Positions 242 to 11,146 of a stretch of 32,077 nt of DNA are shown one piece after another; the stretch's first letter is position 1; every line of letters begins with the position of its first letter. This stretch comes from Pelagibacteraceae bacterium AG-365-D07 (lineage in GTDB: Bacteria; Pseudomonadota; Alphaproteobacteria; Pelagibacterales; Pelagibacteraceae). Under the pieces are notes generated by a model. It had not been told where the DNA came from, did not search any database, and saw only the letters and a list, made by a program, of their open reading frames with translations. Where the stretch lies: assembly GCA_003280005.1 (NCBI GenBank), contig QCGH01000015.1, positions 1 to 32,077 on the forward strand, read 5' to 3'. A program made the position numbers and the translations under genes.

Positions 242-3200
242 ATGGAAAAAAAGGAAATAAAAGAATTATTAAATAAAAAATACGATAGGGAGGAATGGAA
301 AATATTCACCCATAAAATATTTGGAAATATTGATTATTTTAAAACACCAAAAAAAATTGAAACAAAAAACGATAAAATTTTGGAATTTGTTCAAATAGGA
401 AATTTAAAACTTGAGGATAAAAAAAATATTTCACTTTTTGAATTAAAATTAATTAAAGATCTTAATATATACAAAAATAAAGTTGAATTAAGAAATATAG
501 TTACCAAATTTATTGATCAATATTCTAATCATGGGGTTTTGGTAGTTTTTGATAATCAAGGCCGCGATTTTAGATTAACATTTTCTTCCAAGTTCTCTGA
601 ATTTGATGAGGAAGGAAATATTATTGAAAAAGAAACTCCATCAAAAAGATATACCTATCTTCTTGGTGAAAATGAGTCTTGTGCAACAGCTGCTGAAAGA
701 TTTCACCTTCTTTATAATCAAAAAAATAATCTAACTATTAAGGATATGCTAAATGCTTTCAATGTAGAAAAAATAACTGACGAATTTTTTAATACTTATA
801 AAAAACTTTATCTTAAACTATATGATGAAATTAATGGACTTAGAATAAAAGACAAAAACATCGGTAATACTTTTAAAAAAAATAAAATTTCTACAGAAGA
901 ATTTTCAAAAAAAATAATGGGTCAATTAGTTTTTATATATTTTCTTCAAAAAAAAGGATGGTTAGGAATTAAAAAAAATCAAGATAATGTTTTTGAAAAA
1001 TGGGGAAGTGGTGATAAAAATTTCGTTAAAAATTTATTTAAAAAAGAATATTGTAATTATGATAATTTTTTTAATGACGTTTTAGAACCATTATTTATAG
1101 CTTTTTCTACAGATCTTCCTGAAAACTATTATTCAAAATTAGATACAAAAATACCATTTTTAAATGGTGGATTATTTGATCCACTTAAAAATTATGACTG
1201 GCTTGATACAAAGATAAATATAAGTAATGAATTATTTTCTGAGATAATAGAAAATTTTGAAATTTATAATTTTACCATCCAGGAAGAAGATCCAGAGGAA
1301 AAAGAGGTTGCAATAGATCCTGAGATGTTAGGAAAAGTATTTGAAAATTTATTAGAAATTAAAGATAAAAAATCTAAAGGAACTTTTTATACGCCAAGAA
1401 AAATTGCAAAATATATTTGTGACGAGTCTCTTAAAAATTTTTTAATCAATTATTTTGGAGAGGACTCAAGGGTAAATTTTGATAATTTTTTTAATAATAT
1501 TATTGATAAAGATCTTAATAAATTTTTAAAATCAAATTATCAAAAGATAGATGATAAATTAAAAAATATTAAAATCTGTGATCCAGCTATAGGATCGGGT
1601 GAATTTCCAGTAGAGCTTATGAATTTATGTGTTTTAACTAGATTGAGGTTAAATAATTATTTTAATGATAATAAAAGAACGAGTTATCTTATGAAAAGAA
1701 ATTTTATAAAAAATTCAATCTATGGTGTTGATATAGAAGATTCTGCGGTTGAAACAGCCAAGCTAAGGTTATGGTTGTCTCTTGTGATTGATGAAACAGA
1801 TTATTCAAAAATATTACCATTACCTAATTTAGACTACAAAATTTTTAAAGGCGATAGTCTTCTTAGTTTAGAAACAAACCTTTTGGGTTTTGAGATTAAA
1901 GATGATGTTAAAAAATTAAAAAATGAATATTTTAAAACTACCAATATAAAAAAAAAATTAGAGTTGAAAAAAGAAATCGACAATAAATTTAATACAGTTT
2001 TAGATGGCCACATATCATTTGATTATAAAATTTTTTTTAATGAGGTTTTTGAAGATAATGATGGTTTTGATTTAATTATTGGCAATCCCCCATATGTTCA
2101 AATTCAAAAACTAGAAAATAAATTTTATAAATCTCAATTAGATAAAACTTATAAAGTATTTTCAGGAAATGCAGACTTGTATTGTTTATTTTTTGAAAAG
2201 GGTGTTGATTTACTTAATCAGAATGGTTGTTTAGCTTATATTACCTCAAATAAATGGCTCAAAACAGCATATGGAGAATTATTAAGAAGCTATTTTTTAA
2301 ATAATACTAAAATTATAAGACTAATTGATTTTAAATCTTTAAAAGTATTTAAAAGGGCCTCAGTTGACACATCTATCCTTATTTTAAAAAAAGGAAATTT
2401 TGATATTCTATCAGCTACACAAGTAAACACCTCTGAGGAATATTATAATTTAGATAAAACCATTGAGACTAAAACAGTACAACTAAGTAGCTCAAATCTT
2501 AATGGGCCATGGGCCATAGAAGATAAAAAAAGCATAAACTTACTATATAAGCTTAAAAATTTAAAAAATAAACTTCAACTAAATAAAAAGAAATTTAGAT
2601 ATGGTATTAAGACTGGATTAAATAAAGCTTTTATAATTGATAAAAAAACTAGTAATGAAATCATTGATGAAAATTCTAAAAGTAGAAAGGTTATTGAAAA
2701 AGTAATTAGAGGTTCTTGTCTTAATAACTTTTCTTTCTCTTGGGATAATTTTTATTTGATAAATTCACATAATGGTTTTGACGAAAATATTCCTATTAAT
2801 GTGAAGAAAGATTTTCCAGCTATATTTAAATATTTATCAAAATATAAAAAACTCCTAGAAAAAAGAACAGATAAAGTTAATCATTGGACCAATTTAAGAA
2901 GCTGCTCATATATTAAAGAATTTAAATTACCAAAAGTTGCTTGGATGAACATGAATAGAGGATGGAAATTTTCTTATATACCAGAAAACTATTTTATAGA
3001 GGCATCCTTAAATTTTTACGCTGATAAAGATTATGCTAAATATCTTGTAGGCATTTACTCAAGCAATTTACACAAATGGTACTTTAAAAAAATTGGAAGA
3101 ATGTTCGATGATGGAGGTTATATGTGTAAAATTGATACTATATCAAGTTTTCCTGTAATCAATCCAACTAAAAAGCAAAAACAAATATTAGAGGAATATG

Positions 3201-3316
3201 TCGATAATTTATCTAAAATTCACACTCAAAAAGAGAAAGACAAATATGAAAATTATGTTATGGAACTTTATGGTCTAGATGAAACTGAAAAAAAACTCAT
3301 TACTGTAAATATGTGA
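242..3316 (+). CDS. Type IIG-like restriction-modification enzyme (Eco57I/N6-adenine methyltransferase family)
   Basis: The 1024-residue protein carries a DNA N6-adenine methyltransferase core. The SAM motif DPAIGSGEF begins at residue 447 and the catalytic NPPY is at 615-618, preceded by GxFYTP at 380-385, which is typical of large single-chain restriction-modification enzymes and of BREX PglX-like methylases. The C-terminal 350 residues fit a target recognition domain. The N-terminal 150 residues contain a FELKL stretch (about residues 66-70) that could be the E-x-K half of a PD-(D/E)XK nuclease site, but I cannot confirm the nuclease. It follows the upstream gene without a gap and ends 124 bases before tRNA-Leu. 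No separate restriction, specificity or BREX genes are visible downstream. An orphan or BREX-type methylase remains an alternative. Confidence 0.82.
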   Translation: MEKKEIKELLNKKYDREEWKIFTHKIFGNIDYFKTPKKIETKNDKILEFVQIGNLKLEDKKNISLFELKLIKDLNIYKNKVELRNIVTKFIDQYSNHGVLVVFDNQGRDFRLTFSSKFSEFDEEGNIIEKETPSKRYTYLLGENESCATAAERFHLLYNQKNNLTIKDMLNAFNVEKITDEFFNTYKKLYLKLYDEINGLRIKDKNIGNTFKKNKISTEEFSKKIMGQLVFIYFLQKKGWLGIKKNQDNVFEKWGSGDKNFVKNLFKKEYCNYDNFFNDVLEPLFIAFSTDLPENYYSKLDTKIPFLNGGLFDPLKNYDWLDTKINISNELFSEIIENFEIYNFTIQEEDPEEKEVAIDPEMLGKVFENLLEIKDKKSKGTFYTPRKIAKYICDESLKNFLINYFGEDSRVNFDNFFNNIIDKDLNKFLKSNYQKIDDKLKNIKICDPAIGSGEFPVELMNLCVLTRLRLNNYFNDNKRTSYLMKRNFIKNSIYGVDIEDSAVETAKLRLWLSLVIDETDYSKILPLPNLDYKIFKGDSLLSLETNLLGFEIKDDVKKLKNEYFKTTNIKKKLELKKEIDNKFNTVLDGHISFDYKIFFNEVFEDNDGFDLIIGNPPYVQIQKLENKFYKSQLDKTYKVFSGNADLYCLFFEKGVDLLNQNGCLAYITSNKWLKTAYGELLRSYFLNNTKIIRLIDFKSLKVFKRASVDTSILILKKGNFDILSATQVNTSEEYYNLDKTIETKTVQLSSSNLNGPWAIEDKKSINLLYKLKNLKNKLQLNKKKFRYGIKTGLNKAFIIDKKTSNEIIDENSKSRKVIEKVIRGSCLNNFSFSWDNFYLINSHNGFDENIPINVKKDFPAIFKYLSKYKKLLEKRTDKVNHWTNLRSCSYIKEFKLPKVAWMNMNRGWKFSYIPENYFIEASLNFYADKDYAKYLVGIYSSNLHKWYFKKIGRMFDDGGYMCKIDTISSFPVINPTKKQKQILEEYVDNLSKIHTQKEKDKYENYVMELYGLDETEKKLITVNM

Positions 3317-3531: not shown

Positions 3532-4305
3532 ATGAAAAAATTATTTATTGTTTCAGATAAAAATAAAAAATCTGAGAATATTAAATCAAAAGTTCAAAAA
3601 CAAATTCAAAACTCACATTTTAGAAATATTAATATGATAATTGTTATTGGTGGAGATGGATTTATGCTTCAAACACTAAAGAAATTTTACAAATACAAAA
3701 AACCATTTTATGGAGTTAACTCTGGTGATTATGGTTTCTTAATGAATAAGTTTAATGAAAAAAATTTTATAAAAAATATATCTAAAACGGACTCTATTAA
3801 AGTTTCACCACTTCAAATGACAGTTAAAAATAAATTTAATAAAATTAAAAAATCAATTGCTATAAATGAAATATCAATATTAAGACAAAGTAGACAGGCG
3901 GCATCAATCTCAATTAAAAATGGTTCAAAGAATATAATTAAAAAATTAAGAGGAGATGGTTTGCTCGTTTGTACTCCCGCTGGAAGCACTGCATATAATC
4001 TTTCAGTACATGGACCGATTCTGAATTTAAATTCTAACAAATTAGCAATATCTCCAGTAAGTCCATTTAGACCTCGTAGATGGAAGGGGAGGATAGTTAG
4101 CAACAAATCAAGGATTTTAATTAAAAACTTAAATCCTAAAAAAAGACCTATAAGTGCAGTAGCTGATAATGTTGAGGTTCGTAATGCTGTTATAATAAAT
4201 ATAAGTGAAAATAAAAAAATAATTTTTAATCTTTTATATAACAAGAATAAATCTATAGAAAAAAAAATCAAAATTGAACAATTAAGAAAAGAAGTAGGTC
4301 GTTAA
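3532..4305 (+). CDS. nadK: NAD kinase
   Basis: This protein of 257 residues phosphorylates NAD to NADP in the cytoplasm. The diagnostic GGDG loop is at residues 40-43, followed by FMLQTL, and the NAD-binding region GDGLLVCTPAGSTAYNLS lies at about 141-158; both match the bacterial and alphaproteobacterial NAD kinase family. The ATG at 3532 is only 5 bases beyond the CCA end of tRNA-Leu, leaving no room for a separate promoter. The gene ends 3 bases before the 3' end of a convergent tRNA-Thr. Length is at the short end for the family, as expected in a streamlined genome. Confidence 0.93.
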   Translation: MKKLFIVSDKNKKSENIKSKVQKQIQNSHFRNINMIIVIGGDGFMLQTLKKFYKYKKPFYGVNSGDYGFLMNKFNEKNFIKNISKTDSIKVSPLQMTVKNKFNKIKKSIAINEISILRQSRQAASISIKNGSKNIIKKLRGDGLLVCTPAGSTAYNLSVHGPILNLNSNKLAISPVSPFRPRRWKGRIVSNKSRILIKNLNPKKRPISAVADNVEVRNAVIINISENKKIIFNLLYNKNKSIEKKIKIEQLRKEVGR

Positions 4306-4308
4306 TTA

Positions 4309-4384
4309 TGGTGCCCCCACACGGACTCGAACCGCGGACCTACTGATTACAAATCAGTTGCTCTACCAGCTGAGCTATAGGGGC
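4309..4384 (-). tRNA. tRNA-Thr (anticodon UGU)
   Basis: On the minus strand the molecule starts GCCCCTA at 4384. It has a D-arm with AGCTGGTAGAGC, anticodon stem ACTGA/TCAGT around the loop TTTGTAA (anticodon TGT), a TTCGAGT T-loop, and ends TGGGGGC-A-CCA with CCA encoded at 4309-4311. It is convergent with nadK, 3 bases away, and marks the left border of the accessory block. In E. coli the Thr(UGU) tRNA sits beside tRNA-Tyr and tRNA-Gly in front of tufB; here Tyr and Gly remain by tuf while Thr is 6.8 kb away on the other strand. Confidence 0.97.
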
Positions 4385-4402
4385 AGCTAGAATAATGTTT
4401 GA

Positions 4403-4431
4403 TAAATAGTTTAAATTAGAAAAATATTCAA
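4403..4431 (-). promoter_or_regulatory. Candidate promoter for tRNA-Thr
   Basis: Read on the minus strand, TTGAAT (4431-4426), a 17-base spacer and TATTTA (4408-4403) precede the mature tRNA 5' end at 4384 by about 18 bases, a normal spacing. The match is moderate and the region is very AT-rich. Confidence 0.4.
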
Positions 4432-4453
4432 TCAAAATAATCGTCTATATTTT

Positions 4454-4459
4454 TATAAT
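4454..4459 (+). promoter_or_regulatory. Possible -10 box for the sulfotransferase-like gene
   Basis: A perfect TATAAT lies 40 bases before the ATG at 4500, inside the 115-base divergent gap after tRNA-Thr. I could not find a good -35 at the right distance, so the call rests on this hexamer and on the gap being the only upstream space for the plus-strand trio. Confidence 0.3.
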
Positions 4460-4499
4460 AGAAGTATTTAAAAAGATAAGGTAAATAGAAAAAGATTTA

Positions 4500-5450
4500 A
4501 TGTTTTTAAACTTTTTACAGAAAAATAAAAATTTAGAGGATGTTTCAAGATATGACTTTAAGGCTAATCTTGAAAAATTTAATAAATTAAAAAAGACCAA
4601 AAAATTAATTATTGGCGTTACTGTAGGTAGATCTGGAATGAAATGGGTATTAAATATTCTAGAGGCTCATAAAAAAGTTTACGGTGCAGGTGGTGGTGAA
4701 AGAAATAGCTTGTGCGAATCCTTTTATAGATATGCTGTACATAATAAATTTAATGTAGACCAATCAGCACTTTTAAACTCAATAATTTGTGAAACTATAA
4801 ATGACTGGAAAAATAATGATGTTTCTTTTCAATTATCTCCTTATTTTTCTCATAGTATAAAAAAAATTGAAGAAACTTTGAAACCTCATGGGTATATTTG
4901 GGGAGTAAATGACTTTAAATTTACAGTGCAATCTTTTTATAATAAAAATTGGTATAATCCTGAGTACAATATTTCACTTTCAAAAAAAGTACCTGGTTTT
5001 AGTTTAACTGACTTAGCAAAACCAAGCCATTTTTTTGGAAGAATTGCACCTACAAATAAATTTTATAACAAATGGAAAAATTTTACGAGAATCGGCAAGA
5101 TAGCTTGGTACGTTAACTATACGAATAAAATAATTTTTGACTCATTAAAAAAAATTGATAGAAAAAAAAAATTTTTGTTTATCTTGGCTAAAGGAGATCA
5201 AAATTATAATTTTTATTTAAGTCTTGCAAACTGGATTAATTTAAAACACAAATTATCAAAAAAAAATTTTTTAAAAATAAAATTTAAAAAACCTGGAAGA
5301 ATTGGTGTTAAACCTAATGTTTCTCCATCTTTTAATATTTCTGAAAATAGAATAAAAAAGTTTAATAGAAGAGAAGTCAAAGAAATGAGTCATTTTCTTA
5401 AAGAGTATAATAAAATTTACAAAAAATTAATAAACAGTATTAATTATTAA
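4500..5450 (+). CDS. Sulfotransferase-like P-loop protein
   Basis: This 316-residue protein has GVTVGRSGMKWVLNILEAHK at residues 39-58. It resembles the 5'-phosphosulfate binding loop of PAPS-dependent sulfotransferases (usual pattern T/R-x-x-S/T-G-T/M-x-x-L). No signal peptide or membrane segment is apparent. The rest is Lys/Asn/Phe-rich and I see no other clear motif, so substrate is unknown. It is first of three plus-strand genes; the next ATG is 1 base after its stop. With a dioxygenase, a methyltransferase and, converging, a LicD-like transferase, a role in modifying a surface glycan or lipid is a reasonable inference. A different P-loop family is possible. Confidence 0.6.
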   Translation: MFLNFLQKNKNLEDVSRYDFKANLEKFNKLKKTKKLIIGVTVGRSGMKWVLNILEAHKKVYGAGGGERNSLCESFYRYAVHNKFNVDQSALLNSIICETINDWKNNDVSFQLSPYFSHSIKKIEETLKPHGYIWGVNDFKFTVQSFYNKNWYNPEYNISLSKKVPGFSLTDLAKPSHFFGRIAPTNKFYNKWKNFTRIGKIAWYVNYTNKIIFDSLKKIDRKKKFLFILAKGDQNYNFYLSLANWINLKHKLSKKNFLKIKFKKPGRIGVKPNVSPSFNISENRIKKFNRREVKEMSHFLKEYNKIYKKLINSINY

Positions 5451-5451
5451 A

Positions 5452-6252
5452 ATGAAAAAAAATATTCTTAAAAAATATAATTCATTAGGTTTTTGTATAA
5501 TTAAAAACGTTTTAACAAAAAATAAAATAAAAAGTATTCAAGAGACAATAATTGATAGAGTAAATTTAGACTTTAACAAAAATTTTAACAAAAATGATTT
5601 TGATAAAAAATTTTTTCATAAATATTTATTAAATAAAAGAAAAGAAAGTCCAGAAAAATTCTCAAACTTCTATAGTTCCTTACAGACAAACGTGAATATA
5701 TTTTCTATTGCAAGTGATAAAAAACTTAAAAATATTGTAAAAAAAATTCTGCAGATAAAAAAAGATTTTTTAAATTGTAGTGATTTTTTGTTAAGAGCTG
5801 ATGCACCTTTCGATAAAAGAAATTCTTTAGATTGGCACCAAGACTCATCTTATTTCAAAAGAACTGAAGATTTGGCAGATTGTTGTGTTATATGGATACC
5901 TTTACAAAAAATTGATAACAAAATTGGTCCTTTAAATATGATTTCATCAAGTCATTTGTTGGGAGGGTTGCCTTACCAGAGGGTTCAAAAAAATTTGTTA
6001 AGCTCTCCACAAAATACAATTAATAATAAATTTTATGTTAATAAAAAAATTAAAAAATTTAATATGTCTATAGGCGATGTTTTGCTTATGGATTCAAAAG
6101 TTATTCATAGAAGCGGAAAAAACTTATCAAATAAATTCAGGTTTACCATGCTAACTAGAATGGTAAGTTCATTTAATAAAACTTTTATTCCTGGACGTTT
6201 AATTTATCAATATAAAGATGAGTATAACAAAAAATTATTGAAGCGATCATGA
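5452..6252 (+). CDS. PhyH-family Fe(II)/2-oxoglutarate-dependent dioxygenase
   Basis: The 266-residue protein has the phytanoyl-CoA dioxygenase pattern. The facial triad HxD is H129-x-D131 (within LDWHQDSSYF), the distal His is H219 in VIHRSG, and R230 (NKFRF) is positioned to bind 2-oxoglutarate. IWIPLQKIDNKIGPLNMISSSH, roughly residues 147-168, is the usual conserved core strand region. These enzymes hydroxylate small molecules or lipid- or sugar-linked groups using O2; the substrate is unknown here. It overlaps the following methyltransferase by 4 bases (ATGA), so the two are translationally coupled. Some family members act on phosphonates (PhnY, TmpA types); with a phosphonate unit converging on it, that is a possibility but not demonstrated. 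Confidence 0.82.
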   Translation: MKKNILKKYNSLGFCIIKNVLTKNKIKSIQETIIDRVNLDFNKNFNKNDFDKKFFHKYLLNKRKESPEKFSNFYSSLQTNVNIFSIASDKKLKNIVKKILQIKKDFLNCSDFLLRADAPFDKRNSLDWHQDSSYFKRTEDLADCCVIWIPLQKIDNKIGPLNMISSSHLLGGLPYQRVQKNLLSSPQNTINNKFYVNKKIKKFNMSIGDVLLMDSKVIHRSGKNLSNKFRFTMLTRMVSSFNKTFIPGRLIYQYKDEYNKKLLKRS

Positions 6253-7166
6253 AAAAACAAAATATAGAAAAACAAAATGTTAAAAATTATTGGGAAGATA
6301 AAACACCACAAACATGGTATTCGAATAAAGATTTAACCCAGAGTCCAGTGTCATGGTTTAATGAGCTATCTTATAAAAGATATAATGTATTTTATGAATA
6401 CTTGTTAGATGTTGCAGAATTCAATTACCATTCTGGAGAAAAGGTTTTAGAAATAGGCACAGGGATCGGAACAGATCTAGTTTCTTATGCTAAAAATGGT
6501 TCAATTGTATCTGGTGTTGACTTGACAGAAAATGCAATCGAGATGACTAAAAAACATCTACAAGCTTTTAATTTGAAAGCTGAAAATTTATTAGTTGCTG
6601 ATGCTGAAAATTTGCCATTTAAAGATAATCAATTTGATCTAGTTTATTGTTTTGGAGTTCTGCATCATACGCCAAATACAGACAAAGGTATTCAAGAGGT
6701 AATTAGAGTTTTAAAACCAGGAGGAAAATTTATTATTATGTTATATTCAAGAGGTTGGAAACATTACTTTAAAAGACTTTTTATTTTTGGTTTGCTGAAA
6801 GGATATTTATTTAAGTATGGATATGATAAAACTGTCAATAAAACTACAGAAGTGCAAGGCGACTCTCCTCTTACTTATGTTTTAACAAAAAAAGTAATAA
6901 AACAAATTTTTCAAAGTTTAAAAACAGAAAGTATGACAATAAGAAGATATAGGTTAGGTGAGTTTTTTGATTATGCTCCTTATAACTCAAGAAAACTACC
7001 TGGTTTTATAACTAAGTTATTTTATTTTTTTAGTTTAGAAAAATTGCTTGGAGAAAATTATATAATTAAAGGCTTTAAATCTGATGAAAATAACAAAAGA
7101 AATTTTAATCAAAAGCATAGTGTTTGGCAAGTATTATGGGATGAATATAAAAATTATAAAAAATAA
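6249..7166 (+). CDS. Class I SAM-dependent methyltransferase
   Basis: This 305-residue protein has a Rossmann methyltransferase domain. Motif I is LEIGTGIGTD (about 67-76), the acidic residue at the end of strand 2 is D91 (GVDLTENAI), motif II is DAENLPF, and the FDLVYCFGVLHH-VIRVLKPGG region completes the UbiE/type 11 pattern. The C-terminal 120 residues have no obvious motif. It overlaps the dioxygenase gene by 4 bases and is last in the plus-strand trio. Its stop codon lies inside an inverted repeat shared with the converging LicD-like gene. Substrate cannot be read from the sequence; sugar, lipid or phosphonate ester methylation are all open. Confidence 0.85.
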   Translation: MKKQNIEKQNVKNYWEDKTPQTWYSNKDLTQSPVSWFNELSYKRYNVFYEYLLDVAEFNYHSGEKVLEIGTGIGTDLVSYAKNGSIVSGVDLTENAIEMTKKHLQAFNLKAENLLVADAENLPFKDNQFDLVYCFGVLHHTPNTDKGIQEVIRVLKPGGKFIIMLYSRGWKHYFKRLFIFGLLKGYLFKYGYDKTVNKTTEVQGDSPLTYVLTKKVIKQIFQSLKTESMTIRRYRLGEFFDYAPYNSRKLPGFITKLFYFFSLEKLLGENYIIKGFKSDENNKRNFNQKHSVWQVLWDEYKNYKK

Positions 7167-7178
7167 ATATTATTTTTT
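7158..7178. terminator. Bidirectional AT-only terminator-like inverted repeat
   Basis: AAAAAATAA (7158-7166), loop ATA, then TTATTTTTT (7170-7178) is a perfect 9-bp inverted repeat. On either strand it gives a hairpin-like element ending in a T run. Both convergent genes stop inside it: TAA 7164-7166 for the methyltransferase, and TAA read on the minus strand at 7172-7170 for the LicD-like gene. The stem is only A-T pairs and therefore weak. Confidence 0.45.
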
Positions 7179-7802
7179 TATCTTTTTCACTATTGAGTAA
7201 ATTTTTTTTTTAATTTCATGCTTTAAATCTTTATATAAAGCAATATTTTTATTTTTAAACTCACTTGTATTATAAAGATATTTATCAGATGTTCTTAAAG
7301 GTTTTTCCCAATTACCATATGCAAATTTTAAATATTCTTTTGGATTATTGGGGCATTTAAAACTTCTTCCAAAAAACTCAATTTCAGAAAACTTATTTAA
7401 AAATTTTGAAGGAACTGACATTTCTCTCCTCCAATAAACATCTTTTTTTTTTGAATAATTCCAACACCAAATAGTATAACCTGTAACATCCTGTGGATAT
7501 TTTCCTATAAAATCTATTTTCGCATCCATTTCTGTTTTATTTATCTTTAAAATTTTGAAATTATTCATTTCTAATTCCTTAGCCACACTATCAATCTTGT
7601 CTATAAACTCATTTGAAAAAACACTAATTTCAATATCCCAATCCCATTTAATTAAATCATTATCTCTGATTGCACCTAACAATATTCCTGTTTGTAAAAA
7701 ATAATTTATATTTAAATTATCTAAAACATCACAAATTTTTAGAAATTCAGACTTTCTTACTGATAACTCTTCTTTGGTTCTGTCCCTAACTTTTAAATCC
7801 AT
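7170..7802 (-). CDS. LicD-like transferase (nucleotidyltransferase fold)
   Basis: The 210-residue protein contains the LicD/fukutin signature: YFLQTGILLGAIRDNDLIKW (34-53) followed by the metal-binding acidic cluster D54-W55-D56-I57-E58. LicD-family enzymes move phosphocholine or similar phospho-groups from CDP/CMP donors onto sugars of surface polymers; relatives occur in phosphonate clusters and are thought to transfer phosphonates from CMP esters. It is last in a minus-strand unit, 5 bases after the dehydrogenase gene, which is in turn 6 bases after mpnS. The inference is that it puts methylphosphonate or hydroxyethylphosphonate on a cell-surface glycan. No cytidylyltransferase is in the window. 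No signal peptide is seen. Confidence 0.75.
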   Translation of the reverse strand: MDLKVRDRTKEELSVRKSEFLKICDVLDNLNINYFLQTGILLGAIRDNDLIKWDWDIEISVFSNEFIDKIDSVAKELEMNNFKILKINKTEMDAKIDFIGKYPQDVTGYTIWCWNYSKKKDVYWRREMSVPSKFLNKFSEIEFFGRSFKCPNNPKEYLKFAYGNWEKPLRTSDKYLYNTSEFKNKNIALYKDLKHEIKKKIYSIVKKIKK

Positions 7803-7807
7803 TAATA

Positions 7808-8923
7808 TTATTTCTTAGTAAGTAATATTGATTTTAAATCATTTCTTTCAATTCTAATTGGGCAATTTTTTAGTCTTTGATCATTAACCCCTGATAATAT
7901 TTTATTGTAGTCTCTTGATATATTGATACCAAGTTTTTTAAAGTTATTTTCTAATCCTGCTTGGTTTTTTATATTTTTAAGCATAGCATCAAGTTCATAA
8001 ATATTTTTTATTTTAAATAATTTAAAAATTGAATTAAATCTTTCTTTTAAATCAAATGATGTAATTGAATAATTTGAGTTCAAATAATACTTAAGCATAA
8101 ATTCATTTATTGTTAGAGAAACAGCATGTCCATGATCAATCCCATAGTATACACTAAATGGATAAGATGCAGCATGTGGTCCATTTGTTTTTGCGATAGA
8201 AATTGCCTTACCTGATAAATTTGCAGCAAGACACATTTTAATTGTGTTTTCAATGTTTGGTTTTTTAATAAAATTTATATAGTTTGGTATTGATAATTTT
8301 AATGATTTTTTTGAAAACTCAAGGCTCTTTTCATTAGATTTAACAGAAATCATAGACTCCAGAGCTTGTGCAATCGCATCAAAACCAGTTGATGCTTTAA
8401 GAATTTTTTTACTTTTTATAATTAGTTCGGGGATTATAAAATAATAATCTGGTTTAACAAATTCATTCTCAACTGAATATTTATTTTTATTTATATATAA
8501 AACTGCAAATGGAGTGACCTCTGCTCCAGAACCCGCTGTTGTTGGTATAGCTATTAATTTAGAATGTTTTTTTTTAAAATTAAAATTTGATTTTGAAACA
8601 CTTTCTTCAATATTTCCTTCATTAAAATAAACATTCGCTAATTTTGCGTAATCTAATACACATCCTCCTCCTACAGCAATAATCAAATCTGGTTTAAATT
8701 TATTTATTAATTTAATGATTTTTTTTAACTCTTGTAATTCTGGTAAGTATTTCTTTTTAAAGAAAAAATTTACTTCTTTATTTTTTGAAATATTTTTAAA
8801 AATCTTGTCTGCACCAGACTTATAAAAAGAATTGTATCCAGTTAAAAAAAAAATTTTTTTAAAATTTCTGTTTAAAATTAATTTTTGTAAATTTTTGTAA
8901 TCGTTTTTTCCTATAATATTCAT
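7808..8923 (-). CDS. Iron-containing alcohol dehydrogenase, probable phosphonoacetaldehyde reductase
   Basis: This 371-residue group III alcohol dehydrogenase has the NAD(P)-binding GGGCVLDYAK (85-94) and PTTAGSGAEV (127-136). Metal ligands by spacing are D182, Q186, H250 and H264. The usual pattern is Asp-x3-His and two His 14 apart, so the second ligand is Gln rather than His (FDAIAQALES). The best functional guess is reduction of phosphonoacetaldehyde to 2-hydroxyethylphosphonate (PhpC/Pdh role), because the gene lies 6 bases after mpnS, which uses that product. The family is broad, so the substrate rests on context. Weaker alternatives are a general short-chain aldehyde reductase. Confidence 0.8.
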   Translation of the reverse strand: MNIIGKNDYKNLQKLILNRNFKKIFFLTGYNSFYKSGADKIFKNISKNKEVNFFFKKKYLPELQELKKIIKLINKFKPDLIIAVGGGCVLDYAKLANVYFNEGNIEESVSKSNFNFKKKHSKLIAIPTTAGSGAEVTPFAVLYINKNKYSVENEFVKPDYYFIIPELIIKSKKILKASTGFDAIAQALESMISVKSNEKSLEFSKKSLKLSIPNYINFIKKPNIENTIKMCLAANLSGKAISIAKTNGPHAASYPFSVYYGIDHGHAVSLTINEFMLKYYLNSNYSITSFDLKERFNSIFKLFKIKNIYELDAMLKNIKNQAGLENNFKKLGINISRDYNKILSGVNDQRLKNCPIRIERNDLKSILLTKK

Positions 8924-8929
8924 AAAAAA

Positions 8930-10201
8930 TTAATACCATCTACTATTTTCACTCAATACTCTTTCTATATTCTTTTTACCTAACTGAGATAATTGAAGTA
9001 AATTATCACCACTTATATTGCCAGGCACTCGTAATATAAGAACATTTGCATTTTTATTAATAATTGAAAACTTAACAAAAGGTTTTAAGTAAAATGTGTC
9101 ATCTCTGTTTAATTTAAATATTTTTGAATTATGTTTTAACTTTATATTATCACTTAATACATACAAATACTGGTGACAAAAATTTTCAAGAACAATGTAA
9201 TTATTTTTTAATACATTTATTTCAATTGATTTAGCATCTGGAACAAATTTTGATGAAGCCAGCTCACTTATTTGAAAAGTTTTTTGCCTACTGTTTGGAA
9301 AGTACCATTTGTTAGAATTGTTTTTCTTATTAATTGTAACTTTGTTTCTTTTGTCAAATGCCATTACATCTTTTGTATTTACACCCAAAATATTTGAATA
9401 TTTTTCATATACATTATTTTTTTTAATTTTTTTAAGTCTTTTACTTATTTCCTCATCGGTTAATAATAAATTATTTTTAAACCTTTTTATTAAATCTTTA
9501 TTAATTTTTGAGCCATCTTTAACATCAACAAGTATTTTTTTTGCATTAAGATTTCCAATTAATGTTAAATTGTCCTGAAGTTGTGGTGTAACTTTATCTA
9601 AATATGTTAGTGCAATTATAAAGTTTTCTAAATTATCTCTACTTGCAAAGGAATGTGGTACATATGGACTTATATACATTGAGTCACCAGTTTTCATTTT
9701 AGCTACGGATTTTACACCTTTATCATTGACATAGTAAAAATTAATATTGCCTACAAAATAAGTAAATTGATGTAATAAATGACCTTTGTTCCATATTACA
9801 TTTTTGTTTGTAGGTTTGTTGTTATTAACTTTGCAAATTGTTCTTATCCATTCAGGTCTAAATGGTGCAAATTTTTCCATAACTGTATCTCTATATTCAT
9901 AATAATCTTTACCATTTCTTTTTATTATTCTAGATGTTTTCAAAGATTGTTTTTTTGTAAAGATTTTAATATCTGGAGATTTTTTATAAAAAAATTTATG
10001 ATTTATTAAACTGTCAACTTGAACAGGCCAAATTTTAATAATTTTTTTAACTGTTTTAAAATCAAGATTAGCTTTTCCATTTAAAATTTTTTTTATTTTA
10101 GTATGACTTATTTTAAGTTCTCTAGCAGCATCTTCAGGTCTTCTTTTTAAATCATTTAAAATTTGTCTTAATCTTACAGTTGAAAATAATTTTGTATCCA
10201 T
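8930..10201 (-). CDS. mpnS: Methylphosphonate synthase
   Basis: This 423-residue protein is in the HEPD/MpnS family of non-heme iron, O2-dependent, cofactor-free oxygenases; MpnS converts 2-hydroxyethylphosphonate to methylphosphonate. N-terminal residues 10-60 form a lambda-repressor-like HTH with K19, which aligns by eye with the phosphonate-contacting Lys from the neighbouring subunit. RDTVMEKFAPFRPEWIR (104-120) is family-typical. The first cupin has WNKGHLLHQF (137-146) and GDSMYISPYVPHSF (172-185). The metal set is H141, Q145, H183: His-x3-Gln, then His 38 residues on, the spacing I recall for Nitrosopumilus MpnS (148/152/190). HEPD instead uses a Glu where this protein has I177. The second cupin (about 320-395) is degenerate. 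Start ATG is the first in frame; it leads a tight operon with the reductase and LicD-like genes. Confidence 0.88.
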   Translation of the reverse strand: MDTKLFSTVRLRQILNDLKRRPEDAARELKISHTKIKKILNGKANLDFKTVKKIIKIWPVQVDSLINHKFFYKKSPDIKIFTKKQSLKTSRIIKRNGKDYYEYRDTVMEKFAPFRPEWIRTICKVNNNKPTNKNVIWNKGHLLHQFTYFVGNINFYYVNDKGVKSVAKMKTGDSMYISPYVPHSFASRDNLENFIIALTYLDKVTPQLQDNLTLIGNLNAKKILVDVKDGSKINKDLIKRFKNNLLLTDEEISKRLKKIKKNNVYEKYSNILGVNTKDVMAFDKRNKVTINKKNNSNKWYFPNSRQKTFQISELASSKFVPDAKSIEINVLKNNYIVLENFCHQYLYVLSDNIKLKHNSKIFKLNRDDTFYLKPFVKFSIINKNANVLILRVPGNISGDNLLQLSQLGKKNIERVLSENSRWY

Positions 10202-10271
10202 ATTTTTGAAATTAAGTTTAGATTTATCAAATTTTGTTGTTTTTTTAAATTCTTTTCTCTATGAATATCTT
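10202..10271 (-). promoter_or_regulatory. Spacer upstream of mpnS
   Basis: These 70 bases separate the rlmB stop from the mpnS start on the same strand and are the only place for an mpnS promoter. A TTGATA is present on the minus strand but no good -10 follows at the normal distance, and no GC-containing terminator hairpin is seen after rlmB. Read-through from rlmB is therefore possible. No strong Shine-Dalgarno precedes the ATG. Confidence 0.3.
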
Positions 10272-11012
10272 TTAGGTAATTTTACGTTCATTTATATTAT
10301 GAAATGCAATCGAAGCACTATTAGAGAGATTCAAACTTTCAATTTTATCATTAATTTGTATTCTAACTAAAAAATCTACATACTTTTCAGTATGCTTTTT
10401 CATTCCATATCCCTCTGAACCAAATATTAATACATTATTTTGATTTATTTCTATATCACGAATTTTTTTCGTACCATTTGAGTCAAATCCATATATCCAA
10501 AAGTTTTTTTCTCTCAAATATTTTAATGTTGAATTAATGTTTGATACTACGAATATATTTATGTGTTCCATGCATCCACTTGCTGCTTTATGCATAATTT
10601 TACTTGTCTCTGGAAAGTGTCTTTCTTTAACAATTATTCCATCCATATTAAATGCACTAGCACTTCTAATAATTGATCCAATATTTCTTGGATCGGTTGC
10701 TCCAGATAAACAGACAAGATTTATGTTTTTTTGATCTTTAATAAAATTTTTTAATTCTTTTTTTTCTAATTTTTCTACTTCTGCAACAAAACCTTGATGT
10801 AATATATCTTCATTCTTACAATATTTATCCAATTCTTTTCTAGTTTTAAAAAAAACCTTTAAATCTTTAAGTAAATTTTTTTTTGGGTTCTCTCTATGAA
10901 TTGTTTTTTTACTTTCCTCGGTTAAGAAAATTTTAAGAACTTTTCTTCTGTCATTTTTAAGAGCCTCAATTACCGAGTGTTTGCCTACGATGAAATATGA
11001 TGATTTATCCAT
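10272..11012 (-). CDS. rlmB: TrmH/SpoU-family RNA 2'-O-methyltransferase, probable RlmB
   Basis: This protein methylates the 2'-hydroxyl of a guanosine in 23S rRNA if it is RlmB. The three SPOUT motifs are visible: DPRNIGSIIRSA, LIFGSEGYGM and IESLNLSNSASIAFH. An N-terminal substrate-binding domain begins IVGKHSVIEAL. I chose the ATG at 11012 (protein MDKSSYFIVG, 246 residues), because the extra 39 residues of the longer frame to 11129 are Cys/Tyr-rich, unlike the family, and overlap the divergent tRNA promoter region. RlmB rather than another TrmH member is supported by length and domain plan, not by a search. It is divergent from the tRNA-Tyr/tuf operon and co-directional with mpnS. Confidence 0.87.
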   Translation of the reverse strand: MDKSSYFIVGKHSVIEALKNDRRKVLKIFLTEESKKTIHRENPKKNLLKDLKVFFKTRKELDKYCKNEDILHQGFVAEVEKLEKKELKNFIKDQKNINLVCLSGATDPRNIGSIIRSASAFNMDGIIVKERHFPETSKIMHKAASGCMEHINIFVVSNINSTLKYLREKNFWIYGFDSNGTKKIRDIEINQNNVLIFGSEGYGMKKHTEKYVDFLVRIQINDKIESLNLSNSASIAFHNINERKIT

Positions 11013-11036
11013 TTTTTTACATAATTTACACGTTTT

Positions 11037-11065
11037 TTGATAGATTTTACCATAAATTCTAATAT
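11037..11065 (+). promoter_or_regulatory. Candidate promoter of the tRNA-Tyr/Gly/tuf operon
   Basis: TTGATA (11037-11042), a 17-base spacer and TAATAT (11060-11065) form a good sigma-70-type match in the 134-base divergent gap. It lies about 80 bases before the mature tRNA-Tyr end, which leaves a processed leader. Other weaker boxes exist closer to the tRNA, so the start site is not fixed. Confidence 0.42.
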
Positions 11066-11146
11066 TGCAATTATAAGATAAAAATATATAAACCGCCTGT
11101 TGTTTAGGCATTATTAAACATGTGGACACTCTTCCATACTATATTT

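Follow-up and report, generated by a model that had tools for sequence, protein, structure and literature searches.

A divergent candidate methylphosphonate synthase in a SAR11 genome, with phosphonate partner genes on a separate contig

The window, by which we mean the whole stretch of DNA that was analyzed, is the entire contig C15 (32,077 bases) of a genome of 1.05 Mb in 31 contigs with a completeness of 85%. The genome belongs to SAR11, a common group of ocean bacteria: its core blocks match named Pelagibacteraceae and Pelagibacterales records, and a GMP/PMI-ilvD-valS-HTH block is shared with two other SAR11 mpnS loci (L012 and L031) at 71-72% identity for ValS and 85-89% for the HTH protein. 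In the window, an insertion of 5.9 kb separates a tRNA-Thr gene from the core gene rlmB, and mpnS, the putative methylphosphonate synthase (MPnS) gene, stands at its rlmB end. The features of the island and its edges are as follows.

4309..4384, minus strand: tRNA-Thr, left edge of the 5.9 kb insertion
4500..5450, plus strand: gene without a Pfam or NCBIfam match at E 0.01, sulfotransferase-like by eye only
5452..6252, plus strand: PhyH-family dioxygenase, island gene
6249..7166, plus strand: SAM methyltransferase, island gene
7170..7802, minus strand: LicD-family phosphotransferase, candidate activated-phosphonate-to-glycan transferase (Pfam LicD 32.6 bits, cut-off 22.6)
7808..8923, minus strand: iron-containing alcohol dehydrogenase, candidate phosphonoacetaldehyde reductase (Pdh/PhpC role; Pfam Fe-ADH 107 bits)
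8930..10201, minus strand: mpnS, putative methylphosphonate synthase, 423 aa, layout HTH - cupin - shortened HTH - cupin
9362..9514, minus strand: shortened second helix-turn-helix (HTH) region of mpnS, from residue counts between fixed columns, helices predicted in the model
9653..9781, minus strand: active-site stretch with H141, L142, H144, Q145, F155, I177 and H183, from alignment to N. maritimus MPnS (NmMpnS)
10272..11129, minus strand: rlmB, core gene, right edge of the insertion (TIGR00186 172.6 bits, cut-off 160.15)

The mpnS frame opens with ATG on the minus strand (10201..8930), the strand having been left unstated in the first-pass annotation, and is intact over its 423 aa; the plus-strand reading of the same positions contains many stops. 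Membership in the HEPD/MpnS family, which the first-pass annotation of this DNA had claimed for the protein, was borne out, with the MPnS 6b9s as the closest solved protein (E = 6.6e-86, 292 bits) and a match to the S. albus HEPD 6b9r at E = 7.6e-50 and 173 bits. Compared with the N. maritimus enzyme (6b9s, 6b9t), to which it is ~41-42% identical, the window protein keeps the fold, the predicted 2-His-1-Gln set and the counterparts of Phe162/Ile184, His151, K28, R102, Y110 and N145, but its residue 142 is Leu where the N. maritimus enzyme has Phe149, and its second HTH is shortened. We give hardly any credence to the idea that this double-HTH/cupin protein has another role, for instance as a regulator or as an oxidase of another phosphonate. 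While its Pfam matches (HTH and Cupin_2) and its one NCBIfam match, to an oxalate decarboxylase family, are all under the cut-offs, the last of them far under, the MPnS match extends over residues 13-423, the domain layout is that of solved MPnS, and phosphonate pathway genes stand beside its relatives in many loci.

Relatives for the comparison came from a scan of genome_contigs with two short peptide patterns (the Gln motif and Tyr-Glu-Tyr), which gave 72 relatives with organism names; because one of the two patterns holds the Gln motif, Glu-type HEPD is under-sampled in this set. The main tree (IQ-TREE, midpoint root) comprised 69 rows, with 6b9s as the sole verified MPnS and no class I (Glu) HEPD. 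It left out 11 of 80 rows, namely L011, L069, L070, L079, L080, L081 and L082 (incomplete or fragmented), L062 (frame interrupted) and L009, L034 and L036 (copies of L010), and the SAR11 loci added later (L084-L087) are in none of the trees. Two sides were resolved, one of them with 34 rows including 6b9s (support 100/90). The other, of 35 rows, holds L044 and a 13-row marine group along with a 21-row HEPD clade, to which 6b9r and L057, from the argolaphos producer S. monomycini, belong. The window fell within the 34-row MPnS side, paired with L058 (100/98), and the sister group of the pair consisted of the SAR11 MPnS rows and L022 (13 rows, 100/96). Forcing the window and L058 into the 21-row HEPD clade was 46 log units worse and was rejected (p-AU 0.00675), and with it a grouping with S. 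albus HEPD and AlpG, the class II HEPD. The window was flagged in the trees for its long branch and odd letter make-up. In a quick tree built without the active-site columns and without L058, L044 and L078 it stayed on the MPnS side (33 rows, SH-aLRT 94), the exact place of this long-branched row in that tree being unsure. In the tree, which had been named beforehand as a check, the window groups with the verified MPnS.

Window residues H141, L142, H144, Q145, F155, I177 and H183 align with NmMpnS H148, F149, H151, Q152, F162, I184 and H190 (numbered as in the PDB chain), and by this alignment H141, Q145 and H183 are the predicted 2-His-1-Gln metal set of MPnS. The first-pass annotation had given H141, Q145, I177 and H183, with spacings of 32 (Gln to Ile) and 6 (Ile to His), correctly. 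Its use of the Gln ligand to separate MPnS from HEPD fails, since S. albus HEPD has Gln153 and all 21 rows of its clade have Gln. Ile177, which it had set against a ligand Glu in HEPD, does distinguish the window from class II HEPD, but what that class carries at the column is Gly (21 of 21), 31 residues from Gln153 in S. albus HEPD as against 32 in the window. A ligand Glu at this position we take to be a property of class I HEPD, whose 2-His-1-Glu set is absent from the window, Q145 and I177 leaving Glu at neither place. The columns of K19, R95, Y103 and N138, which presumably bind the phosphonate as known from work on HEPD, are invariant across the MPnS side, the HEPD clade and the marine group.

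Judged from these columns, the residues that separate the window from class II HEPD are the pair Phe155/Ile177, of which only the Ile had been pointed out before. The two columns hold Tyr/Gly in all 21 HEPD-clade rows, Phe in 31 and Ile in 33 of the 34 MPnS-side rows, and Phe/Ile in 13 of 13 rows of the marine group; at the H144 column, all 34 MPnS-side rows have His and none of the 21 HEPD rows does. According to the main text of PMC8976061, AlpG was shown to convert 2-hydroxyethylphosphonate to hydroxymethylphosphonate, and its Tyr158-Gly179 is given as the diagnostic pair for class II HEPD. L057, which comes from the AlpG strain (S. monomycini) and was read from its first Met, has Tyr158 and Gly179 on the columns of window F155 and I177, and this mark is missing from the window, which has Phe and Ile instead. 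A passage of PMC11978286 that is without positions names a phenylalanine and an isoleucine as needed for methylphosphonate synthesis. From the AlpG pair we take that Phe to be NmMpnS F162 (window F155), and the marks, read as F162/I184, are present in the window as F155/I177; were the Phe F149, the window, with L142, would fail that mark.

Leu142 bears on the alternative that the enzyme functions as a HEPD, or yields both methylphosphonate and hydroxymethylphosphonate, with a Leu near the metal altering the outcome of the shared radical intermediate. We hold this to be unlikely, though not negligible. At this column Leu predominates in the HEPD clade (16 of 21) but is found in only 2 of 34 MPnS-side rows, the window and L058, the other 32 having Phe; furthermore, the main text of PMC9381506 assigns its marine hepD sequences to Pelagibacterales, with the single exception of one from Prochlorococcus. 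Against this, Phe occupies the column in the other 5 of the 21 HEPD rows, so that the column does not separate the two and was not used as an MPnS/HEPD mark, while Phe155, Ile177 and His144 are all MPnS-like and union with the HEPD clade was rejected as given above. No SAR11 row with the Tyr/Gly mark was found in our scan, which favored proteins with the Gln and Tyr-Glu-Tyr patterns. The window gene also offers a natural test for an effect of Leu142 on the MPnS/HEPD outcome.

Other combinations at the marker columns were seen outside SAR11. An MPnS-side protein of the Marine Group I thaumarchaeote strain F20 (L035:2874-4298) has Tyr and Gly, the HEPD pattern, and may have switched product, and two SAR202 rows (L029 and L050) have Tyr/Ile. 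The 13-row marine group (L063, L065-L068, L071, L073-L078 and L083; Rhodospirillaceae and others, SAR202 and Prochlorococcus) branches on the HEPD side of the midpoint-rooted tree and has MPnS-like Phe/Ile and His, varied residues beside the Gln and mostly DSNYI later on.

An AlphaFold2 model from a 59-row alignment (14 of 77 loci skipped; L041, L053, L054, L072 and L083, 5 of 63 listed references, left out) reached pLDDT 93.2 and pTM 0.91, with low confidence only around residues 61-70. Foldseek returned ten MPnS chains, two S. albus HEPD chains, one further MPnS chain and then PhpD. Because the TM-scores to MPnS and to S. albus HEPD are alike (~0.77), the fold backs the family and not the choice between the two, and it is the E-values and identity in the structural match that lean to MPnS. 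Structure modeling, which had also been proposed as a check, thus supports the family, the best ten PDB matches being MPnS, but does not separate MPnS from HEPD by TM-score. As regards the two classes of HEPD, class II (S. albus 6b9r; AlpG of S. monomycini) shares the fold and the 2-His-1-Gln set with the window but has Tyr/Gly for Phe155/Ile177 and forms a separate clade, and class I (PhpD, 3g7d) shares the fold at TM 0.66 but only 15% identity in the structural match, with a weak family profile match (29 bits).

Between fixed columns, the second HTH region counts 82 residues in the window, 29 in L058 and 92-101 in the other full rows, which places the window 10 residues below the next shortest full row, with only L058 shorter. 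Such shortening would suit a decaying or inactive copy, its second HTH eroding and the PEP mutase locus of the genome serving another phosphonate, as would the facts that PEP mutase does not adjoin mpnS and that it is common for SAR11 genomes to have PEP mutase but no MPnS relative (41 against 6 of 397 genomes). A copy in decay is nevertheless very unlikely in our judgment: the frame is intact, all conserved metal and pocket residues are retained, the model is confident across the second HTH, and mpnS lies 6 nt from the Fe-alcohol dehydrogenase, which as a query matched nothing else in the genome. That the window gene encodes a methylphosphonate synthase is supported by its sequence, tree position, predicted active-site residues and modeled fold, and we put the probability at roughly 0.8 that the product is a non-haem Fe(II), O2-dependent synthase converting 2-hydroxyethylphosphonate to methylphosphonate.

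The dehydrogenase gene starts 6 nt after mpnS and the LicD gene 5 nt beyond the dehydrogenase, all on the minus strand. The dehydrogenase scored under the cut-off of each NCBIfam model that it matched, including TIGR03405, shares 47-48% identity with its counterparts in 8 other SAR11 mpnS loci, and has a relative in 15 of 30 SAR11 PEP mutase loci (L088-L117, viewed over ~1.5 kb on each side). The LicD protein is 62% identical to the LicD adjoining mpnS in L031 and L084. Contig C4 carries, between valS and the HTH gene, a PEP mutase fused to a PF01467 cytidylyltransferase (353 bits, NCBIfam cut-off 319.55, motif EDKVGSKKNS) and a candidate phosphonopyruvate decarboxylase (362 bits, NCBIfam cut-off 312.5). 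PEP mutase, decarboxylase and a candidate reductase, the last assigned by family and neighborhood, are thus all in the genome on two contigs, the first two apart from mpnS in an assembly that is fragmented and incomplete. The first-pass call of an MPnS in a SAR11 genome is upheld by these pathway genes along with the tree, the residues and the predicted fold. PhnJ was not found in the source genome, with a positive control in E. coli; this absence is weak because the genome is 85% complete.

The genes, their families, the company they keep in other genomes and the conserved active site are matters of observation, and the route to which they point would run as follows. The C4 cytidylyltransferase-PEP mutase fusion would form phosphonopyruvate, which the C4 decarboxylase would convert to phosphonoacetaldehyde; the window dehydrogenase would reduce this to 2-hydroxyethylphosphonate, from which the window MPnS would make methylphosphonate, and the cytidylyltransferase domain and LicD may then attach the product to a surface glycan. 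Each reaction in the SAR11 host is our inference, most of all the attachment to a glycan. Phosphonates can be activated by fused cytidylyltransferases, as when Fom1 makes CMP-hydroxyethylphosphonate (main text of PMC6697681), and LicD-like genes lie beside such clusters (main texts of PMC6697681 and PMC9381506), which suggests that the product is placed on a glycan.

Among 397 genomes sampled across the order, 6 had an MPnS relative, as did 8 among 399 sampled from the genus; the two draws overlap, and both counts include the source genome. PEP mutase was over the cut-off in 41 of the 397; one of the SAR11 MPnS relatives (G201) is a fragment at a contig end. Other SAR11 MPnS (e.g., L007, L008, L010, L012 and L031) are sister to the window pair in the tree and have the same kind of dehydrogenase neighbor, and L031 and L084 also have a LicD neighbor of the window's kind, but the other SAR11 enzymes are only about 39-43% identical to the window enzyme and read GHFLHQF where it has GHLLHQF. 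In 16 of 19 SAR11 mpnS loci (some species being counted twice) PEP mutase lies in the same stretch, which it does not in the window; the exceptions are L011, cut by a contig end, L086, with ~1.5 kb on each side, and L012, with none in 16 kb. Set against the C4 genes, PEP mutase of the SAR11 clusters is 75-80% and decarboxylase 66-69% identical, compared with 38-41% for full-length MPnS. Because this last identity is so much lower, the window MPnS seems to have a history different from that of its own PEP mutase. The nearest row, the gammaproteobacterial L058 (Saanich Inlet MAG SI072_bin62), is 45% identical and shares Leu142, but it has lost the second HTH and has PEP mutase and decarboxylase (over the NCBIfam cut-offs) and an Fe-alcohol dehydrogenase directly behind. 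In another SAR11 genome, AG-365-F20, mpnS is in two frames (L062:7998-9293), through a true frameshift or a sequencing error.

The distance from tRNA-Thr to the end of the rlmB match is 36-55 bp in 5 of 7 same-genus relatives and 0.9 and 1.5 kb in the other two, compared with 5.9 kb in the window; these 7 of 9 same-genus rlmB matches exclude two near contig ends, and nine matches of another family were also left out. On the opposite side of the same tRNA-Thr, between it and NAD kinase, the genome G328 (L145:8353-14523) holds a different phosphonate set. It encodes a fused PEP mutase that passes the cut-off with 366.6 bits, a decarboxylase-like protein that at 280.8 bits falls short of its cut-off (312.5), a member of the APS-kinase family and a nucleotidyltransferase. 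Since this set and the window island flank the same tRNA, the variable region has held phosphonate genes at least twice. The product of the gene at 4500..5450 is 29-30% identical to that of a gene near mpnS in L031 and L084. Within 4300-10280, neither the 13 families of direct repeats nor the 25 longest inverted pairs (out of 48), which are mainly A+T-rich, involve the tRNA-Thr end, and no integrase was seen that explains the arrival of the island. Base composition is uninformative because the island (22-28% G+C) and the left flank (23-27%) are alike. A viral origin was considered and rejected: a tblastn comparison with 50,697 phage records (E 1e-5) gave no match, and of 66 pattern-matching stretches in viral_contigs none was confirmed. 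At the left end of the contig, beside a tRNA-Leu, lies a large Eco57I-type restriction-modification protein (242-3316; Pfam 151 bits).

In oxic surface water, methylphosphonate gives rise to methane when other microbes break it down. Who makes it, and how often mpnS moves, decide how far surveys can be trusted. The first-pass annotation was right that mpnS had been linked to SAR11 before, and it overstated the importance of the gene for the same reason, since MPnS in Pelagibacterales is already in print (main text of PMC9381506). The core finding of MPnS in SAR11 is not new; less expected are the divergent MPnS and the split pathway. Beyond the earlier annotation, the analysis shows how far the protein departs from the usual SAR11 enzyme, that its partner genes lie on C4, and where the island is inserted. 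Neither the window gene nor a split SAR11 mpnS pathway was found in passages of PMC8931226, PMC11978286, PMC8976061, PMC6697681, PMC10734540, PMC4010748 and PMC9381506, though a supplementary table may list it.

An even bet, in our view, is a broader reading in which SAR11 has a second, separately acquired MPnS lineage that is losing its second HTH and works in a mosaic pathway, with SAR11-type PEP mutase and decarboxylase elsewhere and foreign-looking mpnS, dehydrogenase and LicD at the tRNA-Thr/rlmB site, and in which such producers are undercounted. Acker et al. recorded mpnS only where it adjoined pepM (main text of PMC8931226), and if the broader reading is true, surveys of that kind would not record the second lineage. 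In the survey by Lockwood et al., a read counted as mpnS if it was at least 60% identical across 32 or 40 residues (main text of PMC9381506). When the window protein is compared with the 79 other rows, this level is reached by 122 of its 392 stretches at the length of 32 residues and by 124 of 384 at the length of 40; with the 13 usual SAR11 rows alone, the figures are 87 of 392 and 92 of 384, respectively, so that such read counts would catch about a quarter to a third of the stretches of the second lineage. These partial matches rule out that a survey of reads at 60% identity would miss the window gene altogether; a gene of this kind would be undercounted rather than missed, unless its own sequence is in the reference set.
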